Positions 9,300 to 46,511 of a stretch of 47,913 nt of DNA are shown here, piece by piece; position 1 is the first letter of the stretch, and each line of letters begins with the position of its first letter. Under the pieces are notes generated by a model that saw only the letters and a list, made by a program, of their open reading frames with translations, had not been told where the DNA came from and did no database searches. Both the position numbers and the translations under genes were made by a program. Source of the DNA: Halanaerobium congolense (GTDB taxonomy: Bacteria > Bacillota > Halanaerobiia > Halanaerobiales > Halanaerobiaceae); the NCBI RefSeq assembly GCF_004366375.1, contig NZ_SOEF01000024.1:1-47913 (forward strand), in the 5' to 3' direction.

Positions 9300-9395
9300 C
9301 CCTTACCTCAGACTCGCCGGATGAGGCACTCTTCTTAGAAGAGATTTTACGGCCTATACCGTGCGGTTTTGGCACCTTCAAAATGAAGGCTGGAT
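9300..9395 (-). ncRNA. Ribosomal protein L21 leader (cis-regulatory RNA)
   Basis: The 5' leader of rplU is rich in stems. CCTTCA/TGAAGG (9375-9389) comes first, then a conserved-looking segment GGTGCCAAAACCGCACGG, then ACGG/CCGT. CTCTTC/GAAGAG (9329-9343) and CCTCA/TGAGG (9306-9326) lie nearest the ribosome site. Position and stem order match the L21 leader known from Firmicutes, thought to be bound by L21 for feedback control. I assign it by position and recalled features; a covariance-model search was not run. Confidence 0.72.
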
Positions 9396-33434: not shown

Positions 33435-34322
33435 CTACTGCAGACGCTCTTTTTTTCTGTTTTGATGATTATTATAGACAGATGCTAGATAAATACCACC
33501 TAAAATAAAGGCACCTCCAAACATTGTTGTCATTCTTACTTCTTCGTTCAACAGCAGCCAGGCTAAAAATGTTGTTAGTATTGGCTCTCCCAAAATTGAC
33601 AGAGAAACTATTGATGTTGGTAGATAACGAACTGCTAGATTAAGTATTGAATGGCCGACAATTGTTGGTCCTAGGGCCAAAGCTAAAAATATTAAATAAT
33701 TAGTGGAGCCATAGCCAGCAAATGGTATCTCAAAAATATAGACTCCGGCAGCTAAAAAGATAGCAGCATATGTATAAAGAATATATAGGTAGGGAAAATA
33801 GTTGAGTTTTTTTCTAACCCCTCTTCCTATAAAAAGATAAGATGATGCAAATAAAGCTGCTGATAAGGCTAGAAAATTACCAAATAATTTATCTCCCAGC
33901 TGATAAAAATCTCCAATGCTAATAATTGAACTCCCAATTACCGCCATTACAATTCCAATAACAGCACCTTCTTTTAAATCTTCTCTGGCAAACAAATATT
34001 CTAGAATTATTGTGAATAGAGGCTGAAGTGCCACAAAAATAACTGAATTAGAAATATCTGTATACTGGATAGAACTGATCCATAAAATAAAATGTACAGC
34101 CAAGAGAAAACCGACCAATAATGGCCGGTAATCTAAAAAATAACGCGCATCTTTTCTATGTTTAATTAGAAAATATGGAGTTAAAATTAAAACCGTAAAA
34201 AACATTCTATAAAAGGCAGTAATTAATGGTGGTGCAGTAGCTACTTTTATTAAAACACCTGAGGTAGACAAAAAGAAAATACCTACCGCAAGTAATATAT
34301 ATATTTTTTTCTTATAATCCAT
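33435..34322 (-). CDS. EamA/DMT-superfamily transporter
   Basis: A 295-residue inner-membrane protein with ten predicted helices in two EamA repeats (about 6-137 and 150-287). Typical features are AFYRMFFTVLILTPYFL in repeat 1, and LSLSILGEPILTTFLAWLLLNEE near the end. Family members export or import amino acids, sugars or other metabolites; the substrate cannot be inferred. It follows the GH65 gene by 59 bases and may share its mRNA. The start has AGGTG upstream. Confidence 0.88.
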   Translation of the reverse strand: MDYKKKIYILLAVGIFFLSTSGVLIKVATAPPLITAFYRMFFTVLILTPYFLIKHRKDARYFLDYRPLLVGFLLAVHFILWISSIQYTDISNSVIFVALQPLFTIILEYLFAREDLKEGAVIGIVMAVIGSSIISIGDFYQLGDKLFGNFLALSAALFASSYLFIGRGVRKKLNYFPYLYILYTYAAIFLAAGVYIFEIPFAGYGSTNYLIFLALALGPTIVGHSILNLAVRYLPTSIVSLSILGEPILTTFLAWLLLNEEVRMTTMFGGAFILGGIYLASVYNNHQNRKKERLQ

Positions 34323-34381: not shown

Positions 34382-36715
34382 TTATAATTTTACTTTTTCT
34401 GCTAAATTACTTTCTTCTAATGAAATTAACTGCTCAAAATGTTTAAATTCTACCTTATCACCTGAAATCAGCATGTATTTAACAGTGTTTTCTTTAACTG
34501 TCACCTCTATTTGACTACCTTTAAAACGCAGTCTAAACTGATAACTATTCCAACCATCAGGTAAATGGGGATGGAAATATAGCTTTCCATTAAACATTCT
34601 CATGCCGGCAAAGCCCTGTACTAGTGAAAGCCAGGTTCCGCCCATACAGGCTGTATGTATCCCCTGATAGGCATTTTCGTTATAATCATCAAGGTCAAGT
34701 CGGGCAGTCTGCATAAAATAATTATAGGCCTGATTTTTATAACCTATTTCCGAGGCAATTATACTGTAAATTGCCGGTGATAGTGAAGAATCATGGGTTG
34801 TTTTAGGTTCATAGTAATCATAGTTTCTAAGCTTCAAGTCCTGGCTAAACTGGTCTCCAAGCTGCAGCATCAGCAGCATTACATCTGCCTGCTTAATTAC
34901 TTGATAACGCCAGATGATTAATGGATGCCAATTTTTAACCAGCGGCAATTCTTCTTCTGGAATATTATCCACTTCTATTGGGTTTTTATAAAGAAAGGAA
35001 TCATCCTGAGGGGTGATTTCTAAATCTTTATTGTACGGAAGATAGATATCTTCTTTTATTTTTTTCATCTCAGATATTTCTTTTTCAGTCAGGCCGATTC
35101 TTTCCGCCAGACGCTTATATTTCTCAGGTGCTTCTTTTTTGATAATCGCTGCCATTTTAACTGCAGTATCCAGGTTAAACTTAGCCATATAATTTGTATA
35201 AGCATTATTATTGACACCAGGCTTATACTCATCAGGTCCACAGACTGTATTAAAACAAAACTTATTATCTTTCATTGGAATATAGCTACCCAGGCTGATC
35301 CACATTCTAGCTGTTTCAACTAAAATTTCAAGACCAAAGTTTTCCATAAACTCCTGGTCATTGCTAACCTGATAATATAAATTTAAGGCATAAGCAATAT
35401 CAGCATTGATATGATACTGGACTGTAGACCCCATAAAAAATCCTGAGGCCTCTTCCCCATTAATTGTCCTCCAGGGAAATAAGGCTCCATCCAGTTTTAT
35501 TCTTTCAGCATTCTTTCTTGCCTGATCAAGTGTATTATATCTAAAAAGCAGCAGATTGCGTGCTACTTCTGGACGCTGAAAAGCATAAAAAGGAAGAACA
35601 TAGCTTTCTGTATCCCAAAAATAATGGCCTTCATAATATTCTCCACTGATTCCTTTGGCAGCAACACTAGTCTGACCATCTTTTCCAGCAGCCTGTAGTA
35701 TATGAAAGGCATTAAATCTAAATGCCTGCTGTAAAGCATCGTCTCCATCTATTTTAACATCTACATCCTGCCAGTAACCTGTCATAAATTCTGCCTGTTC
35801 TTCGAGAAGATTTTCAAAACCAGAAATTGAAGCTCTTGCCGCTGAGGCTCTGGCATCACTAAGGGGGTTTTCTCCAGCTTCCTGACTGTGGTTGACACCT
35901 ACAATTTTGTCAATTGTATATTCTTCACCCTGGCTGGCGCTGATTTCAAAAATCCAATCAATTCTATTATCTGAAGATCTCTTTTTTACTTTACAATTAT
36001 CTTGAGTATGACCTTTGATCGAATGTTCCACAACATATGCTATTTTAAAATTAGTACTTTTAACATCGTGCAGTAGATGGCCGCTTTTACTGTCAACTTC
36101 GCTTTCTATTACCTCTAAAGCTTTTTTATCTCTTAAGTGATGATGATTGCTTACATCACCATTAATGGCTGAGTTAAGACTAATTTTACCGGAAAAATTG
36201 ATTGCTTTAAATTGATACCTAATTGCACCAATATGTTCTCTGCTTAATGAAATCAAGCGGGTAATTTTAATTTCAATTTTTCTTCCCTGGCGATCTTCCC
36301 AGATAATATATCTTTTAAGTACTCCCTGTTTTAAATCTAGTTCCCGATTATAATCTAAAACCTTGCCTTTAAGTAAATTTAGTTTTTCCTCGTTAATATA
36401 TAAATTAATTTCACTCCAGTCAGCTAAGTTAATCATTGTCTGACCTTTTTTGGGTAAATTAGGTGCTTCTTCCCCATAAATAATTTCTTCTGAAGCATAG
36501 ACTCCGTTAATATAAAAACCAGGAGTTGTTGTTTCTTCACTACCTGGATAATCTTCTTCTAAAGTTCCTCTTAAACCAAGATAGCCATTACCAAGAGAAA
36601 AAATAGCTTCATTGTGATGATTATTTTCTAATAAAAATTCCTCTTCGGTGATTTTCCAGTCTTGATATGGATATATTGAATCTTTATCCATTTTTTTGGC
36701 ATGATAATTTCTCAA
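34382..36715 (-). CDS. Glycoside hydrolase family 65 enzyme (disaccharide phosphorylase type)
   Basis: A 777-residue GH65 protein. The N-terminal beta-sandwich (about 15-300) includes FSLGNGYLGLRGTLEE. The (alpha/alpha)6 catalytic barrel follows with GEYYEGHYFWDTESYVLPF, and VCGPDEYKPGVNNNAYTNYM, whose E496 aligns with the general acid of maltose phosphorylase. KTTHDSSLSPAIYS is typical of the phosphate-binding area. Most bacterial members phosphorolyse maltose, trehalose, kojibiose or similar sugars. The donor cannot be decided here, but an osmolyte-related role for trehalose is tempting in a halophile. The start is TTG behind GAGGGGG. The P-loop/Asp23 gene lies 35 bases before it. Confidence 0.9.
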   Translation of the reverse strand: MRNYHAKKMDKDSIYPYQDWKITEEEFLLENNHHNEAIFSLGNGYLGLRGTLEEDYPGSEETTTPGFYINGVYASEEIIYGEEAPNLPKKGQTMINLADWSEINLYINEEKLNLLKGKVLDYNRELDLKQGVLKRYIIWEDRQGRKIEIKITRLISLSREHIGAIRYQFKAINFSGKISLNSAINGDVSNHHHLRDKKALEVIESEVDSKSGHLLHDVKSTNFKIAYVVEHSIKGHTQDNCKVKKRSSDNRIDWIFEISASQGEEYTIDKIVGVNHSQEAGENPLSDARASAARASISGFENLLEEQAEFMTGYWQDVDVKIDGDDALQQAFRFNAFHILQAAGKDGQTSVAAKGISGEYYEGHYFWDTESYVLPFYAFQRPEVARNLLLFRYNTLDQARKNAERIKLDGALFPWRTINGEEASGFFMGSTVQYHINADIAYALNLYYQVSNDQEFMENFGLEILVETARMWISLGSYIPMKDNKFCFNTVCGPDEYKPGVNNNAYTNYMAKFNLDTAVKMAAIIKKEAPEKYKRLAERIGLTEKEISEMKKIKEDIYLPYNKDLEITPQDDSFLYKNPIEVDNIPEEELPLVKNWHPLIIWRYQVIKQADVMLLMLQLGDQFSQDLKLRNYDYYEPKTTHDSSLSPAIYSIIASEIGYKNQAYNYFMQTARLDLDDYNENAYQGIHTACMGGTWLSLVQGFAGMRMFNGKLYFHPHLPDGWNSYQFRLRFKGSQIEVTVKENTVKYMLISGDKVEFKHFEQLISLEESNLAEKVKL

Positions 36716-36749
36716 TTTATTTACCCCCTCAATAACTTAATGAAATATC

Positions 36750-37559
36750 TTAATCAACACTTAAAGAATAAATTTCAATATCAATTTCTTTAACATTGAT
36801 TCCTGTATTATTTTCTAAATGTACTTTTAGTGCTGACCTGAATTCATTAACAAAATTTGTGATAATTAAACCATATCTAATTTCTAAAGATAGATCAACA
36901 ATAAGCTGGCTGTTTATTTCTTCAACTTTTACTTTTTTGAAAGCAGTAATCTCCTCAAAATCCTTAATCAAATACTCTATAAAACTTACCAGTACTCGAT
37001 TACTGATGCTCAAGTTTCCATAAAAGCTAAAACGCGGCCGAACTATACTTTTTTCATGGCGGACTGTCTCATCATCTTTTTTGAAAAATAGTTCTAGTGA
37101 ATGCAGCAGATAACCTGAGAAATCTTGCTCTACTTCAATAGTTGGCACCGGAATGACATGTTTGCCTTCATTATTTCTGACTGAAAGTGCTTTTTCTATC
37201 TCCTCTGCTGAAGAAATTTCTTCAATATTAATATACTGGTCAATTCCATGAAGTTCCAATCGCTCATCAATTCGCTCAACCATTCCCGTAGAAGTGCCTA
37301 AAATCAATATTTTATCTTCATCTATTTCTTTAAGACATTTTTTTACTTCTTCTGTTTGTTTTTCATCATAAAAAAGAGCCCTTCGAATTGCTCCCATTTT
37401 ACTTTCTTCTCTTTTAGCAGAGCTGCCTGCCATTATTTTACCGGCATAGATCAGCAGACCATCGTCAACTATCAGGGGTATCTGATATTTATTTGCTAAA
37501 AGTACCGCACGGTGGCTTTTACCTGTTCCACTGGGCCCAACAAGAGCATATACTTTCAT
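36750..37559 (-). CDS. P-loop ATPase fused to an Asp23/Gls24-like domain
   Basis: A 269-residue protein I cannot assign a function. Residues 1-120 form a nucleotide-binding domain with Walker A VGPSGTGKSHRAVLLA at the very start, then PLIVDDGLLIYAG and a hydrophobic strand ILILGTS. Residues 180-269 resemble the Asp23/Gls24 envelope-stress domain: GNLSISNRVLVSFIEYL, then VKVEEINSQLIVDLSLEIRYG and NVKEIDIEIYSL. AAGGT is spaced for the ATG at 37559, so the upstream 18 codons are dropped. It has its own promoter and probably leads into the GH65 gene. The pairing hints at a stress or wall-linked kinase or regulator, which is inference. Confidence 0.75.
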   Translation of the reverse strand: MKVYALVGPSGTGKSHRAVLLANKYQIPLIVDDGLLIYAGKIMAGSSAKREESKMGAIRRALFYDEKQTEEVKKCLKEIDEDKILILGTSTGMVERIDERLELHGIDQYINIEEISSAEEIEKALSVRNNEGKHVIPVPTIEVEQDFSGYLLHSLELFFKKDDETVRHEKSIVRPRFSFYGNLSISNRVLVSFIEYLIKDFEEITAFKKVKVEEINSQLIVDLSLEIRYGLIITNFVNEFRSALKVHLENNTGINVKEIDIEIYSLSVD

Positions 37560-42082: not shown

Positions 42083-42520
42083 TCAAATAAGTTCTAATTT
42101 AGCTCCAGCTTTTATTAAGCCACCTTTAATTACTTTGGCAAAGATTCCTTCTTTCGGCATTACACAATCACCTATTTTTTGCATAATTTCACAATCATGA
42201 TGACATTTTTTTCCGATTTGAGTGACTTCTATAATAACTTTTTCGTCAATTTTTATTTTTTGTCCAACTGGAAGTTCATAGAGTTTATCTAAGCCTTCTG
42301 TTGTAATATTTTCAGCAAAATCTCCAAATTTTAATTCATAACCCTGGTTTCGCATTTTGTCAATACTACTTTCATCTAAAAGGCTCAACTGACGGTGCCA
42401 TTTGCCGGCATGAGCATCCCCTTTTAAACCAAAATTTTCAATTAAAATCCCTTCCTCTATTACTTTTTTGGTTGTTCCTTTTTCTTCACTCAAGCAAACT
42501 GCTTTGATTTTAGCTTCCAT
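42083..42520 (-). CDS. MOSC domain-containing protein
   Basis: A 145-residue stand-alone MOSC protein. The family is a sulfur-carrying relative of the molybdenum cofactor sulfurase C-terminus. Signatures are LIENFGLKGDAHAGKWHRQLSLLD, FGDFAENITTEG and GKKCHHDCEIM, whose cysteine is the expected sulfur carrier. Small MOSC proteins often lie beside moaB/mog in Clostridia, as here. GAGGTGG precedes the ATG. It follows the MoaB gene after 88 bases. Confidence 0.9.
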   Translation of the reverse strand: MEAKIKAVCLSEEKGTTKKVIEEGILIENFGLKGDAHAGKWHRQLSLLDESSIDKMRNQGYELKFGDFAENITTEGLDKLYELPVGQKIKIDEKVIIEVTQIGKKCHHDCEIMQKIGDCVMPKEGIFAKVIKGGLIKAGAKLELI

Positions 42521-42608
42521 CTATTCCACCTCTGTAATTTTTATTTCTTAAATAATCTTTATTTATTTAATTCTTAAGAAAAAAATAGCCGAATCTCTAA
42601 AAAACTAG

Positions 42609-43166
42609 TTAATGATTATGATCATGTTGATGACTGTTGTCATTGCTGTGACGGTGTTCTGTAATTTCCCCTTTTAAAATCTTTACTCCATGGGGAATAA
42701 TTTCTATTACTGCATCCAAGCATTCTCTAACTGCTTTGGGACTTCCTGGAAAATTGATAATTAAGCTTTCTTTTCTAATACCAGCTCTGGCTCTTGATAA
42801 TGCAGCCTGAGGTGTTCTGGCAAGGGTATCAGCTCTTATTTTTTCTGGAATTCCCGGCACTTCTTTTTCTATTACTTCTAATGTTGCTTCAGGAGTAATA
42901 TCACGTTTGGCAAAACCTGTGCCACCTGTGGTTAAAATCAAATCCGCTTGCTTCTGATCTGAAATCTCAATTAAAGCTTTTTTTATTTCGGCCTTTTCAT
43001 CAGCAATGATATCTTCATACACAATTACGGCTCCAATTTTTTCCATCATTTCTTTAATAATTGGGCCACTCAGATCTTTTCTTTCTCCACGTGAGCCTTT
43101 ATCGCTAATTGTTAAAACTGCTGTTCTTATTTTAAATTTATTTTTCTTCTCGCTCATAAATCCCAC
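42609..43166 (-). CDS. moaB: Molybdopterin adenylyltransferase family protein (MoaB/MogA) with His-rich tail
   Basis: Activates molybdopterin with AMP before metal insertion. The family fold shows RTAVLTISDKGSRGERKDLSG, LTTGGTGFAKRDITPEAT and IINFPGSPKAVRECLDAV. Residues 171-185 form a histidine-rich tail (HRHSNDNSHQHDHNH) that may bind metal. GTG at 43166 has AGGAGG at ideal spacing, so I keep it over the ATG three codons later. The gene overlaps moaC by 29 bases, in a different frame. Confidence 0.9.
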   Translation of the reverse strand: MGFMSEKKNKFKIRTAVLTISDKGSRGERKDLSGPIIKEMMEKIGAVIVYEDIIADEKAEIKKALIEISDQKQADLILTTGGTGFAKRDITPEATLEVIEKEVPGIPEKIRADTLARTPQAALSRARAGIRKESLIINFPGSPKAVRECLDAVIEIIPHGVKILKGEITEHRHSNDNSHQHDHNH

Positions 43167-43620
43167 TCTTTCCTCCTGCTTTGTACATTAATTTGATTGA
43201 TCCGATCTCCATTGATTTATCAACTGCTTTAATCATATCGTAAATTGTAAGGGCAGCTAGATTAACAGCAGTCAGAGCTTCCATTTCGACTCCAGTTTGA
43301 CCGCTATTTTTAACTTCTGAAAATATTTTTATTTTATTTTCAAAGTTTAGGTCAAAATCAACTTTGATACTGCTTAAAAGTAAAGGGTGACACATAGGTA
43401 TTAAATCCGAGGTTTTTTTAGCACCTGTGATTCCTGCAATTCTTGCAGTCTCAATTACAGCTCCCTTTTTTATATTACCTGCTTTTATTTTTTTTAAAGT
43501 TTCAGGCTGCATTTTAATTTCTCCTACAGCTCTGGCGGTTCTTTTGGTTGTTTTCTTTTCTGAAACATCTACCATCTGTACTTTCCCGTTCTGGTCAACA
43601 TGTGACAATTCTTTATTCAT
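43138..43620 (-). CDS. moaC: Cyclic pyranopterin monophosphate synthase
   Basis: Second enzyme of molybdopterin synthesis; it closes the pterin ring on the MoaA product. Motifs: MVDVSEKKTTKRTARA near the N-terminus, KKTSDLIPMCHPLLL, TGVEMEALTAVN and DMIKAVDKSM. At 160 residues it is full length. TTGGAGG precedes the ATG. It starts two bases after moaA ends and overlaps moaB, so all three are one translational unit. Confidence 0.96.
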   Translation of the reverse strand: MNKELSHVDQNGKVQMVDVSEKKTTKRTARAVGEIKMQPETLKKIKAGNIKKGAVIETARIAGITGAKKTSDLIPMCHPLLLSSIKVDFDLNFENKIKIFSEVKNSGQTGVEMEALTAVNLAALTIYDMIKAVDKSMEIGSIKLMYKAGGKSGIYEREEK

Positions 43621-43622
43621 TT

Positions 43623-44582
43623 TCAGCCTCCAATTTGTGACATATTTCGATTATAAGCCTGTTCTGCAAAATCAAGATGGTGACAGGCCGGTTTTAATTT
43701 TAGTGCTTCTATAAATGCTGATTCAATTTCTGAACTATTTATTTCTTTAATCTTAACTTCTTGATTACCTGCCAGGCAGGGCTTTATTTTGGCATCAGCA
43801 GTTAAACGCAGTCGATTACAACTGCTGCAGAAATGTTCGCTAAGGGCAGAAATAAAGCCAATTGTACCTGAAGCACCTTCGACTTTAAAATAATTGGCAG
43901 GCCCACTGCCCTTAGTTACTGCAGGCAGCAATTTATATTTGTCTGCAATTATTTTTTTAATTTCTTTACTGCTGATAAATTTCTCAGCTTCTGCTTCGCC
44001 TCCCAGAGGCATATATTCTATAAATCTAATATTTAGTTCTTTATTTCGACTTAATTCCACAAAATCTAATATCTCGTTATCATTAATCCCTTTCATCACT
44101 ACCATATTAATTTTAACAGGTTTGAGATCTGCTTCAAGTGCAGCTTCAATTCCAGCTAAAACATAGCTTAAAGCCCGACGCCGTGTGATCTTCTCAAATT
44201 TTTCGGAACTCAAACTGTCTAAGCTGATATTAATCCTATCTAAACCAGCTTTTTTTAATGAAGATGCTTTATCTGCCAGAGCCACAGCATTAGAGGTCAT
44301 TGAAATATCCTCTAAATCCAATTTGTTAAGTTCTTTAATTAAAGCTTCCACATTTTTTCTAACTAATGGTTCACCACCAGTTAGACGAATCTTTTTAATG
44401 CCCATTTTAACAGCAGTTTTGGCTATTTTTATTATTTCTTCATAGCTTAAAATCTCCGAGTGATCTTTTTCTCTGACTCCTTCTGCAGGCATGCAGTAAC
44501 GGCAGCGAAGATTGCAGCGGTCAGTTATTGAGATTCTTAAATAATCTATTTTTCTTCCAAATTGATCAATTAATTTCTGCAT
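43623..44582 (-). CDS. moaA: GTP 3',8-cyclase (radical SAM)
   Basis: First enzyme of molybdopterin synthesis; it rearranges GTP with two iron-sulfur clusters. The radical SAM motif has C23, C27 and C30 (DRCNLRCRYC). The C-terminal cluster cysteines are in FCSSCNRLRLTADAKIKPC, and the catalytic double glycine ends the protein (SQIGG). At 319 residues it is typical. GGAGG precedes the ATG. Confidence 0.96.
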   Translation of the reverse strand: MQKLIDQFGRKIDYLRISITDRCNLRCRYCMPAEGVREKDHSEILSYEEIIKIAKTAVKMGIKKIRLTGGEPLVRKNVEALIKELNKLDLEDISMTSNAVALADKASSLKKAGLDRINISLDSLSSEKFEKITRRRALSYVLAGIEAALEADLKPVKINMVVMKGINDNEILDFVELSRNKELNIRFIEYMPLGGEAEAEKFISSKEIKKIIADKYKLLPAVTKGSGPANYFKVEGASGTIGFISALSEHFCSSCNRLRLTADAKIKPCLAGNQEVKIKEINSSEIESAFIEALKLKPACHHLDFAEQAYNRNMSQIGG

Positions 44583-44597
44583 TTAATTGCCTCCATT

Positions 44598-46511
44598 TTA
44601 AAGTTCTAAGCTTTTAATTTTTCCACTTTCCTGGCAGTTATAGCCCCCAAGTTTTTCTATTTTAGCTTTTATTTTATCTTGATTTAAGAGTTCTATTAAT
44701 TTTTTGACCCGGGGATCATCTATATATTTCTCTCGTATTATTAAATCATATTTTTCTTCAGCTAAAGCCAAGAAATCAACATCCATAACTTCAGCTGCTG
44801 CTCTAATACCTAAAGCTGCATCTGCTGAACCCCGTCCTACAGCGGCTGCAGCTGCAATGTGTGTAAACTCTTCTTTTTCATAACCAGAAATTTCTGCCGG
44901 CTGAATCTTATTCTGTTTTAAAAGATAATCAAATAAGACCCTAGTACCTGCACCACGCTGTCTGTTAATATAATTAATATTTTCTCCTTTTAAATCATTA
45001 ATGTCTTCTATATTTTTAGGGTTTCCCTTTTTAAGATATAAACCCTGTTCTCTCTGAACTAAATTGACTAAAAATATTTTTTCTCCTTTAAAAAATCTTT
45101 TTAAGTAAGAAATATTGTACTCACCTGTTACAGGATCTAAAAGATGGGCACCCGCTAAATGAGATTCTTCTCTTTTTAGAGCTGTTAGACCTGCCATTGA
45201 TCCTACAGTCTGCAGTTTTAAGTCAAAATTATAGTTTCTTTCTCTGATTTCATTTCTAATTAAATCTAAACTTAAATCATGGCTTCCAATTAAAAGCAGA
45301 TCATTTTCTATTTTACTTTTTTCTTTTAAAAGAATAACTGGAGCTTGATCTCCAGGATGAAGGCCTTCTTTGTTTTCACCTATTTTCATAATTCCATCTG
45401 CTTTCAGCATTGATTCCATAGCTGAAGATCCCCTTTTTAAAGGAACTGCAGTGAACTCATTTTCACTATTACTAATTAAATTAACTCTTAAAAACTCTTC
45501 TAAACCTATTTCCGATGGAACTTTACGGTTTACAACTGCTTTGATCTGATTAAATTTTGGAGCCTGGTCTCCCTGAAGTAAATAAACTATTTCTCTAATA
45601 AAAAGCTGATTATCCAGCCAGGCAGAAAGTGGATAACCTGGTAAGCCAAATACAGGTGTATCTTTTACTTGAGCTGCAATCAGAGGTTTCCCAGGCATAA
45701 TATTTACACCATGAAATAAGATTTCTCCTTCATTTTGTAAAATATCTATTGTAAAGTCACCTCTGCCGGCAGAAGATCCGGATAAAACAATTACAAGATC
45801 ACTTGCCTCAACTGCCTGCAGCATTTTGCTTTTAATAATTTCTTTTTGATCTGCTAAAATTTCTGTTATTTTAACTTTGGCTCCCCACTTGTTTAAAGCT
45901 GCTTTAACCATTTTTGAATTAAATTCTACTAATTCACCAACTTTAGGCTTTTTTTCGGCGCTGACTAGTTCATCACCGGTTGGAATTATTGATACTAATG
46001 GTTTTTTATAGACTTCAACTTCAGTGACTCCCGCTTCTAAAAGAGCTGCTAGATCATAATCACTAAGCTTATGATTTGTAGTAACCAATAAATTACCTTT
46101 GACAGTACTCTCGCCAATAGAACGGATATGATTCCAGGGTGGAACTCCTTTTTCAATCACATAATATTTTTTTTCAACTTGGTTTACTTCTTCGATTTTT
46201 ATAACTGCATTAAATCTTTCTGGTATGGGATCACCAGTATCTACAGGCTGAGCTTCTTTACCAATTTTCAGTTTAATTGGCGATCTTTCACTGGCTCCAG
46301 CAGTTTTTTGAGCTTGAACTGCAATTCCATCCATTGCAGATGCATAAAAATCGGGAGCTGAACGTTCTGCATAAAAAGGTCTAGCAGTAATTCTTCCTTC
46401 TGCATCTACGGTTTGAATTTTTTCGGTCTCAGTTCTTAAATTTTTAAATCTATTTTCTAATTTAGCTAGGGCATCTGCTAATGAGATTTTATTTAAATAT
46501 TTTTTAACCAT
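44598..46511 (-). CDS. MoeA-type molybdotransferase with C-terminal PBP-like domain
   Basis: A 637-residue fusion. Residues 1-405 are MoeA-like (FYASAMDGIAV, PTGDELV, LSGSSAGRGDFT, MPGKPLIAA, GLPGYPLSAW), which inserts metal into adenylated molybdopterin. Residues 410-637 are a periplasmic-binding-protein-like domain with no signal peptide (LLLIGSHDLSLDLI, GSMAGLTALKR, RQRGAGTRVLFDYLL), presumably an intracellular oxyanion or ligand sensor. The architecture is known in anaerobic Firmicutes. The ribosome site (AGAGGT) is far from the ATG, so the start is less certain. Confidence 0.9.
   Translation of the reverse strand: MVKKYLNKISLADALAKLENRFKNLRTETEKIQTVDAEGRITARPFYAERSAPDFYASAMDGIAVQAQKTAGASERSPIKLKIGKEAQPVDTGDPIPERFNAVIKIEEVNQVEKKYYVIEKGVPPWNHIRSIGESTVKGNLLVTTNHKLSDYDLAALLEAGVTEVEVYKKPLVSIIPTGDELVSAEKKPKVGELVEFNSKMVKAALNKWGAKVKITEILADQKEIIKSKMLQAVEASDLVIVLSGSSAGRGDFTIDILQNEGEILFHGVNIMPGKPLIAAQVKDTPVFGLPGYPLSAWLDNQLFIREIVYLLQGDQAPKFNQIKAVVNRKVPSEIGLEEFLRVNLISNSENEFTAVPLKRGSSAMESMLKADGIMKIGENKEGLHPGDQAPVILLKEKSKIENDLLLIGSHDLSLDLIRNEIRERNYNFDLKLQTVGSMAGLTALKREESHLAGAHLLDPVTGEYNISYLKRFFKGEKIFLVNLVQREQGLYLKKGNPKNIEDINDLKGENINYINRQRGAGTRVLFDYLLKQNKIQPAEISGYEKEEFTHIAAAAAVGRGSADAALGIRAAAEVMDVDFLALAEEKYDLIIREKYIDDPRVKKLIELLNQDKIKAKIEKLGGYNCQESGKIKSLEL

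Follow-up and report, generated by a model that had tools for sequence, protein, structure and literature searches.

What does a protein do that carries a nucleotide-binding-type domain at one end and an Asp23 domain at the other, and do the genes beside it tell of its role? The question is raised by a window of 47,913 nucleotides of Halanaerobium congolense (assembly GCF_004366375.1, contig NZ_SOEF01000024.1, positions 1 to 47,913), in which such a gene, here named P0001, lies directly before a GH65 phosphorylase-type gene. Sequence evidence indicates that P0001 encodes a real, uncharacterised two-part bacterial protein, with a predicted ATP-binding-type domain followed by an Asp23 envelope domain, a kind of its own among Asp23-domain proteins. 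The explanation we favour, with reserve, is a membrane-located scaffold of the Asp23 type that is gated by nucleotide, a reading in which we infer nucleotide binding, self-assembly, membrane location and switching.

Architecture of the P-loop/Asp23 protein

The gene occupies positions 36750..37559 of the reverse strand, the strand of all window features given here with coordinates, and encodes 269 residues from an ATG start preceded by GAAAGAAGG. The P-loop domain spans residues 1-131 (37167..37559), as delimited by alignments and by a model of residues 1-150, and holds a Walker A motif, GPSGTGKS, at residues 8-15. It is followed by a conserved linker of about residues 132-178 (37026..37166), which includes the stretches GKHVIPVPT (132-140) and EKSIVRP (169-175), and by the Asp23 domain of about residues 179-269 (36753..37025), defined by a Pfam match and a structural model. 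The Pfam search placed Asp23 (PF03780; cut-off 28 bits) on residues 201-264 with a score of 34.5 bits, and IPT (PF01745; cut-off 20 bits) on residues 1-63 with one of 23.6 bits. A sequence-only reading of this DNA had proposed an N-terminal Walker A domain joined to an Asp23-like domain, and the Pfam score for PF03780 bears this out. Profile searches did not reject the Asp23 assignment, which recurred at E <= 0.01 in all 29 sequences of an alignment of relatives at 35-83% identity (A2).

P0001 shares a C-terminal Asp23 domain, above the curated cut-off, with the Asp23/Gls24 family (Staphylococcus aureus Asp23, Bacillus subtilis YloU and YqhY), and differs from it by the addition of the P-loop domain and the conserved linker. 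To our knowledge, S. aureus Asp23, YloU and YqhY have neither. A sequence search of known structures found no solved structure of the fusion protein, the best profile hit being the P-loop of an ABC protein (E 0.0055). Across the titles and beginnings of abstracts listed, with subscription journals mostly outside the search, no description of this architecture was found; the 'P-loop' of the one paper that mentions Asp23, P-loop and Gls24 together (PMC6593474) refers to the PknB kinase and not to an Asp23 protein.

Conservation and distribution

The design is no isolated case. A homologue is present in 14/14 Halanaerobiaceae genomes (12 Halanaerobium and two sister genera) and, at E <= 0.001, in 204 of 398 genomes sampled from the phylum; 37 of these matches are weak (E above 1e-7), and the remaining 167 reach E 2.5e-38 or better. 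Outside Halanaerobiaceae, the matches listed show 35-51% identity over nearly the full length. A scan of named genomes, mostly metagenome bins whose taxonomic labels may be wrong, added at least 28 loci, mostly of Clostridia and Selenomonadales, with four labelled Spirochaetes. As strong matches occur in roughly two of every five genomes sampled from the phylum, a function established in one tractable clostridium could carry over widely.

In A2 the invariant positions are G8, S10 to S15, D32, D33, G34, G45, S47, K49, A61, T89, S90, M93, I97, L103, I112, A124, R128, H134, P137, P139, R174, P175 and G181. A broader set of 89 loci was also assembled, made up of the window, 20 loci, 28 from named genomes and a further 40, picked roughly one per family; 86 of them show the Walker A pattern and 87 the DDG pattern. 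Because the Walker A core and the polar residues are invariant in A2 and both patterns persist in 86-87 of the 89 loci, the nucleotide site is probably functional and not a relic.

Two details of the distribution deserve mention. In the four loci labelled Spirochaetes (L068, L082, L084 and L090), the match spans query residues 1 to 261-267, and either transfer or mislabelled bins would account for it. In one genus (L125; genomes G021, G068, G106 and G195), an open frame of 489-557 codons surrounds the P-loop/Asp23 match, which may be a genuine N-terminal extension or merely an open frame.

A proposed nucleotide-gated scaffold at the membrane

The scaffold reading arises because a conserved nucleotide site precedes a domain of the type for which filaments and a membrane connection have been described in S. 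aureus. In vitro, the Asp23 of that species assembles into filaments; AmaP anchors it to the membrane, and the molecular function of Asp23 is called still unclear (PMC6954212). By extension, P0001 may be soluble and act as a scaffold, its C-terminal Asp23 domain associating with itself along the inner side of the membrane. The N-terminal, kinase-like P-loop domain would bind ATP (or GTP) and thereby switch assembly or the binding of a partner, and the linker (HVIPVPT ... EKSIVRP) could be a partner or inter-subunit contact that changes with nucleotide. In Halanaerobium, expression may in addition follow sugar or osmolyte conditions through the unit formed with the GH65 and EamA genes, which would be local wiring only. 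An Asp23 branch with its own nucleotide-binding-type domain would offer an experimental handle: a defined site could be mutated, a nucleotide titrated and a conserved linker probed.

An analogy can be drawn with SpoIVA, an ATPase that assembles during sporulation and that likewise places an NTPase domain within a self-assembling protein, although the Pfam search gave no SpoIVA match to P0001. SpoIVA is present in 335 of the 398 phylum genomes. Of the 63 that lack it 20 were listed, and the P-loop/Asp23 protein occurs in 10 of these, which rules out a requirement for sporulation.

A search of the H. congolense genome with the Asp23 model returned four hits, namely P0001, AmaP and two small Asp23 proteins, for one of which a sequence search found no solved relative (best hit E 0.85). 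The AmaP of this genome (NCBIfam 80.4 bits, cut-off 55) adjoins a small Asp23 gene on a different contig (C8; the window is C24).

The N-terminal domain

Modelled alone, residues 1-150 gave a mean predicted local distance difference test score (pLDDT) of 84 and a predicted template modelling score of 0.79. The model begins with the P-loop strand and helix, continues with a strand ending in DD and a beta hairpin, and closes with two more strands with helices between. Most of the structural matches listed are to P-loop kinases or proteins related to them, and all are weak: the best VIA Z score was 6.8 (root-mean-square deviation (rmsd) 3.5, 124 residues) and the best Foldseek E 0.0088, with none at 0.001 or less.

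Kinship was assessed further by profile comparison with seven P-loop families, each against 100 column shuffles in which the P-loop was kept. The alignments held 18 of the 19 loci given for MiaA (20 fetched), 21/21 for HPr kinase (30 fetched), 17/20 for adenylate kinase, 18/20 for CoaE, 4/20 for shikimate kinase, 4 for cytidylate kinase and 19 for DnaC. Adenylate kinase ranks first with a profile score of 48.1 that 0/100 shuffles reached, and the similarity extends beyond the P-loop. The scores of the other families were reached by 2/100 shuffles for shikimate kinase, 4/100 for MiaA, 16/100 for cytidylate kinase, 20/100 for HPr kinase, 52/100 for CoaE and 57/100 for DnaC. For adenylate kinase, the Pfam search returned no ADK row for P0001 at E <= 1, and the NCBIfam models scored far below their cut-offs. 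The domain resembles the P-loop kinases (adenylate, shikimate) in the probable P-loop fold of its model, its Walker A motif and a profile similarity over about 80 columns, but it is shorter, reaches no family cut-off, and differs from adenylate and shikimate kinases in a DDG after the second strand and an LGTS after the next parallel strand. From these comparisons it appears nucleotide-kinase-like and placeable in no specific known family.

Two more specific kinships were considered. Weak pointers to MiaA and the isopentenyl transferases came from the IPT match, which is above the cut-off for P0001, from a MiaA model aligned to residues 5-159 (E 0.0024, far below its cut-off), from the top phmmer hit (2qgn, E 0.23), from the second rank in Foldseek, and from a first run in which 0/30 shuffles reached the score. 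This kinship is weakened by the larger control, in which 4/100 shuffles reached the MiaA score and adenylate kinase scored higher with 0/100; the IPT match, moreover, is found in only 7/29 sequences of A2 at E <= 0.01. HPr kinase, suggested by a GxSGxGKS motif followed by DD, was dropped as a specific kinship when 20/100 shuffles (5/30 in the first run) reached its score. It does not figure among the structural matches listed, which excludes nothing.

The linker and the Asp23 domain

In the full-length, single-chain model the mean pLDDT is 75, and residues 132-183 fall below 50. This segment has no predicted structure as a single chain, and it contains some of the best conserved residues of the protein. 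The Asp23 domain model is similar in structure to the C-terminal domain found in CDF metal transporters (MamM, YiiP), with Z 9.4-10.4, rmsd 1.8-2.9 over 75-82 residues and 2-13% identity among the matches listed. The C-terminal domain of CDF transporters has a role in dimerisation. As an aside, the likeness offers a hint on the fold of Asp23 domains in general.

Gene neighbourhood across loci

In the 89 loci, genes were called by a simple open reading frame (ORF) picker with homology support, so that single neighbour names may err, although the names of the DnaD- and DnaC-like clusters and of the adjacent families below were checked with family models; the neighbour counts ignore relatedness among loci; 79 of the 89 span at least three genes on each side of the P-loop/Asp23 gene. 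The most recurrent neighbour clusters were a DnaD-like gene (Pfam DnaB_2; 21/89) and a DnaC-like gene (IstB; 19/89), both together occurring in 19/89. The DnaD-like gene is co-directional and downstream in 8 loci, divergent and upstream in 10, and otherwise placed in 3, and 19 of its 21 loci were drawn from 17 families. The eight loci with co-directional downstream DnaD-like and DnaC-like genes are L053, L056, L057, L061, L099, L103, L107 and L123, and in some of them fewer than 20 bp separate the P-loop/Asp23 gene from the DnaD-like gene.

Adjacent genes were then scanned after the removal of 10 of the 89 loci (70% identity or more), leaving 79, and of 15 of the 156 ORFs, mostly very short, leaving 141. 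DnaB_2 was the commonest family (11 genes), followed by OGG_N, HhH-GPD and aminotransferase (6 each). In 34 of the 79 non-redundant loci no co-directional gene lies within 60 bp of the P-loop/Asp23 gene, which therefore has the appearance of a stand-alone housekeeping gene. A place beside the primosome genes is a possible ancestral arrangement.

The GH65 neighbour in Halanaerobiaceae

The gene downstream of P0001 (34382..36715; 777 residues, TTG start preceded by GAGGGGG) encodes a GH65 phosphorylase-type protein with N-terminal, catalytic and C-terminal GH65 domains at 226, 391 and 64 bits in Pfam, and the next gene downstream (33435..34322) encodes an EamA-family transporter of 295 residues. 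P-loop/Asp23 directly precedes GH65 on the same strand in 12/12 Halanaerobium genomes, with 34 bp between the two genes in the window and a range of 5 to 36 bp over these loci. Upstream, a sigma-A-like promoter candidate, TTGAAA-17-TATAAT, lies at 37723-37695 and matches at 11/12 positions. Promoter-like sites number 31 in the 5-kb stretch, against a shuffle mean of 20.7 (sd 4.7). Upstream sequence suffices in 11 Halanaerobium loci, the twelfth being cut by a contig end; of these, 11/11 keep TATAAT and 10/11 the full TTGAAA-17-TATAAT. The P-loop/Asp23 gene thus probably heads a transcription unit with GH65 and EamA in Halanaerobium. The strong promoter that the sequence-only reading had assigned to both genes is supported at the level of sequence.

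In the two sister genera, too, the P-loop/Asp23 gene is found upstream of GH65 and shares its strand, and three or four genes separate the two: P-loop/Asp23 is followed by moaA, moaC and MOSC (plus a MoCF-type gene in one), and then by GH65 and EamA. One locus includes a likely spurious ORF on the opposite strand, and in L044 moaA was assigned by its clustering with L045. Within the 89 loci, GH65 occurs in four, all of Halanaerobiaceae, and in 0/85 outside the family. Since GH65 accompanies the protein in 14/14 family genomes but in none of the 85 outside loci, the coupling is not a general role of the protein. Absence of GH65 in relatives, which the sequence-only reading had named as the sign of chance adjacency, accordingly holds outside Halanaerobiaceae and fails inside it.

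The GH65 protein can be aligned with structurally solved kojibiose and maltose phosphorylases. Its specificity was read by eye at the six positions whose motif, TRIGPP, marks a confirmed trehalose phosphorylase (PMC8537180). Three of the six are alignable (R392, I394 and P585, in the numbering of that paper) and all agree with trehalose phosphorylase, while positions 64, 402 and 416 fall at or in alignment gaps. The GH65 of the window is, on this reading, possibly a trehalose phosphorylase.

Weighing the explanations

The chief rival to the scaffold, in itself doubtful and nearly as likely, is a small-molecule kinase or other P-loop transferase in which the polar residues around the P-loop would form the active site and the Asp23 domain would serve mainly for dimerisation. 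The many invariant polar residues in A2, the resemblance in profile and fold searches to adenylate kinase, shikimate kinase and isopentenyl transferases, and the CDF-like model of the Asp23 domain all suit such an enzyme, yet the P-loop domain is only about 131 residues long, none of the kinase families emerges as its home once controls are added, and no recurrent metabolic partner appears among the commonest adjacent families. Several points weigh against the scaffold in turn. The weak structural matches of the modelled N-terminal domain leave a switch and an enzyme in balance, and the likeness of the modelled Asp23 domain to CDF domains reveals no function. Outside A2 the Walker A motif varies, reading GPPGSGKS in one locus and escaping the pattern in 3/89. 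No AmaP gene stands beside P0001 in the window, where the direct neighbours are fabF and GH65, and we found no report in which binding of nucleotide, assembly or location at the membrane had been measured for a protein of this design.

The remaining explanations draw on the neighbourhood. A membrane-side partner of the primosome, working with the DnaD- and DnaC-like replication initiation proteins, is unlikely: the joint presence of both genes in 19/89 loci, the first rank of DnaB_2 among the 141 adjacent genes and the spread over 17 families speak for it, but the pair is missing from 70/89 loci within the stretches covered, the divergent set points away from the pair and forms no operon, and the link may be inherited gene order; the counts ignore relatedness among loci chosen about one per family, and the same count was run for no other gene. 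Slighter still is the chance that GH65 is the means by which the protein ties envelope stress to the turnover of sugars or osmolytes, as the sequence-only reading had proposed. The unbroken Halanaerobium adjacency with its short gaps and conserved promoter, the retention of GH65 while the upstream gene varies (fabF in 6/11 loci), the three residues fitting trehalose phosphorylase and the proximity of the two genes on one strand in both sister genera favour it, whereas moaA, moaC and MOSC intervene in those genera and GH65 is near in none of the loci outside the family. The domain and co-transcription parts of that proposal are supported; the functional link to sugar or osmolyte turnover is unsupported as the role of the protein, with relatives at 35-51% identity lacking a GH65 neighbour. 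Least probable of all is a role in controlling the synthesis of fatty acids or phospholipids in the manner of YqhY, an Asp23 protein that one source links to acetyl-CoA carboxylase control in B. subtilis, while describing Asp23 proteins as widespread and highly expressed (PMC5437119). It would fit the fabF, fabD and fabH genes just upstream in the window, a carboxyltransferase gene within three genes in 7/89 loci, and AcpP- and PlsC-like genes (named by eye) in 5 loci each, but lipid genes fall outside the 25 commonest families listed for the 141 adjacent genes, and fabF is not the direct upstream gene in 5/11 Halanaerobium loci. A broader and improbable synthesis would make P0001 a widespread, nucleotide-driven membrane scaffold of Clostridia, perhaps also of Spirochaetes, in which Asp23 assembles at the membrane and the P-loop gates a helicase-loading contact, linking the DnaD/DnaC primosome to the membrane, the gene having been re-wired in Halanaerobium to the GH65 unit.

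Molybdenum cofactor genes and other features of the window

Beyond fabF, fabD and fabH, the window holds moaA, moaC, MOSC and MoeA-type genes further upstream of P0001. These molybdenum cofactor genes (42083-46511) comprise MOSC, MoaC, MoaA and a 637-residue MoeA fused to a PBP-like domain, and their flanks resemble, by eye, MobB, MogA and a second MoeA. The simplest account of the two gene orders is that the molybdenum cofactor genes departed from this position in Halanaerobium, leaving GH65 adjoining P0001, with the reverse direction as the alternative. Elsewhere in the window, a ribosomal protein L21 leader RNA (Rfam RF00559, 40.3 bits) lies at 9300-9378.

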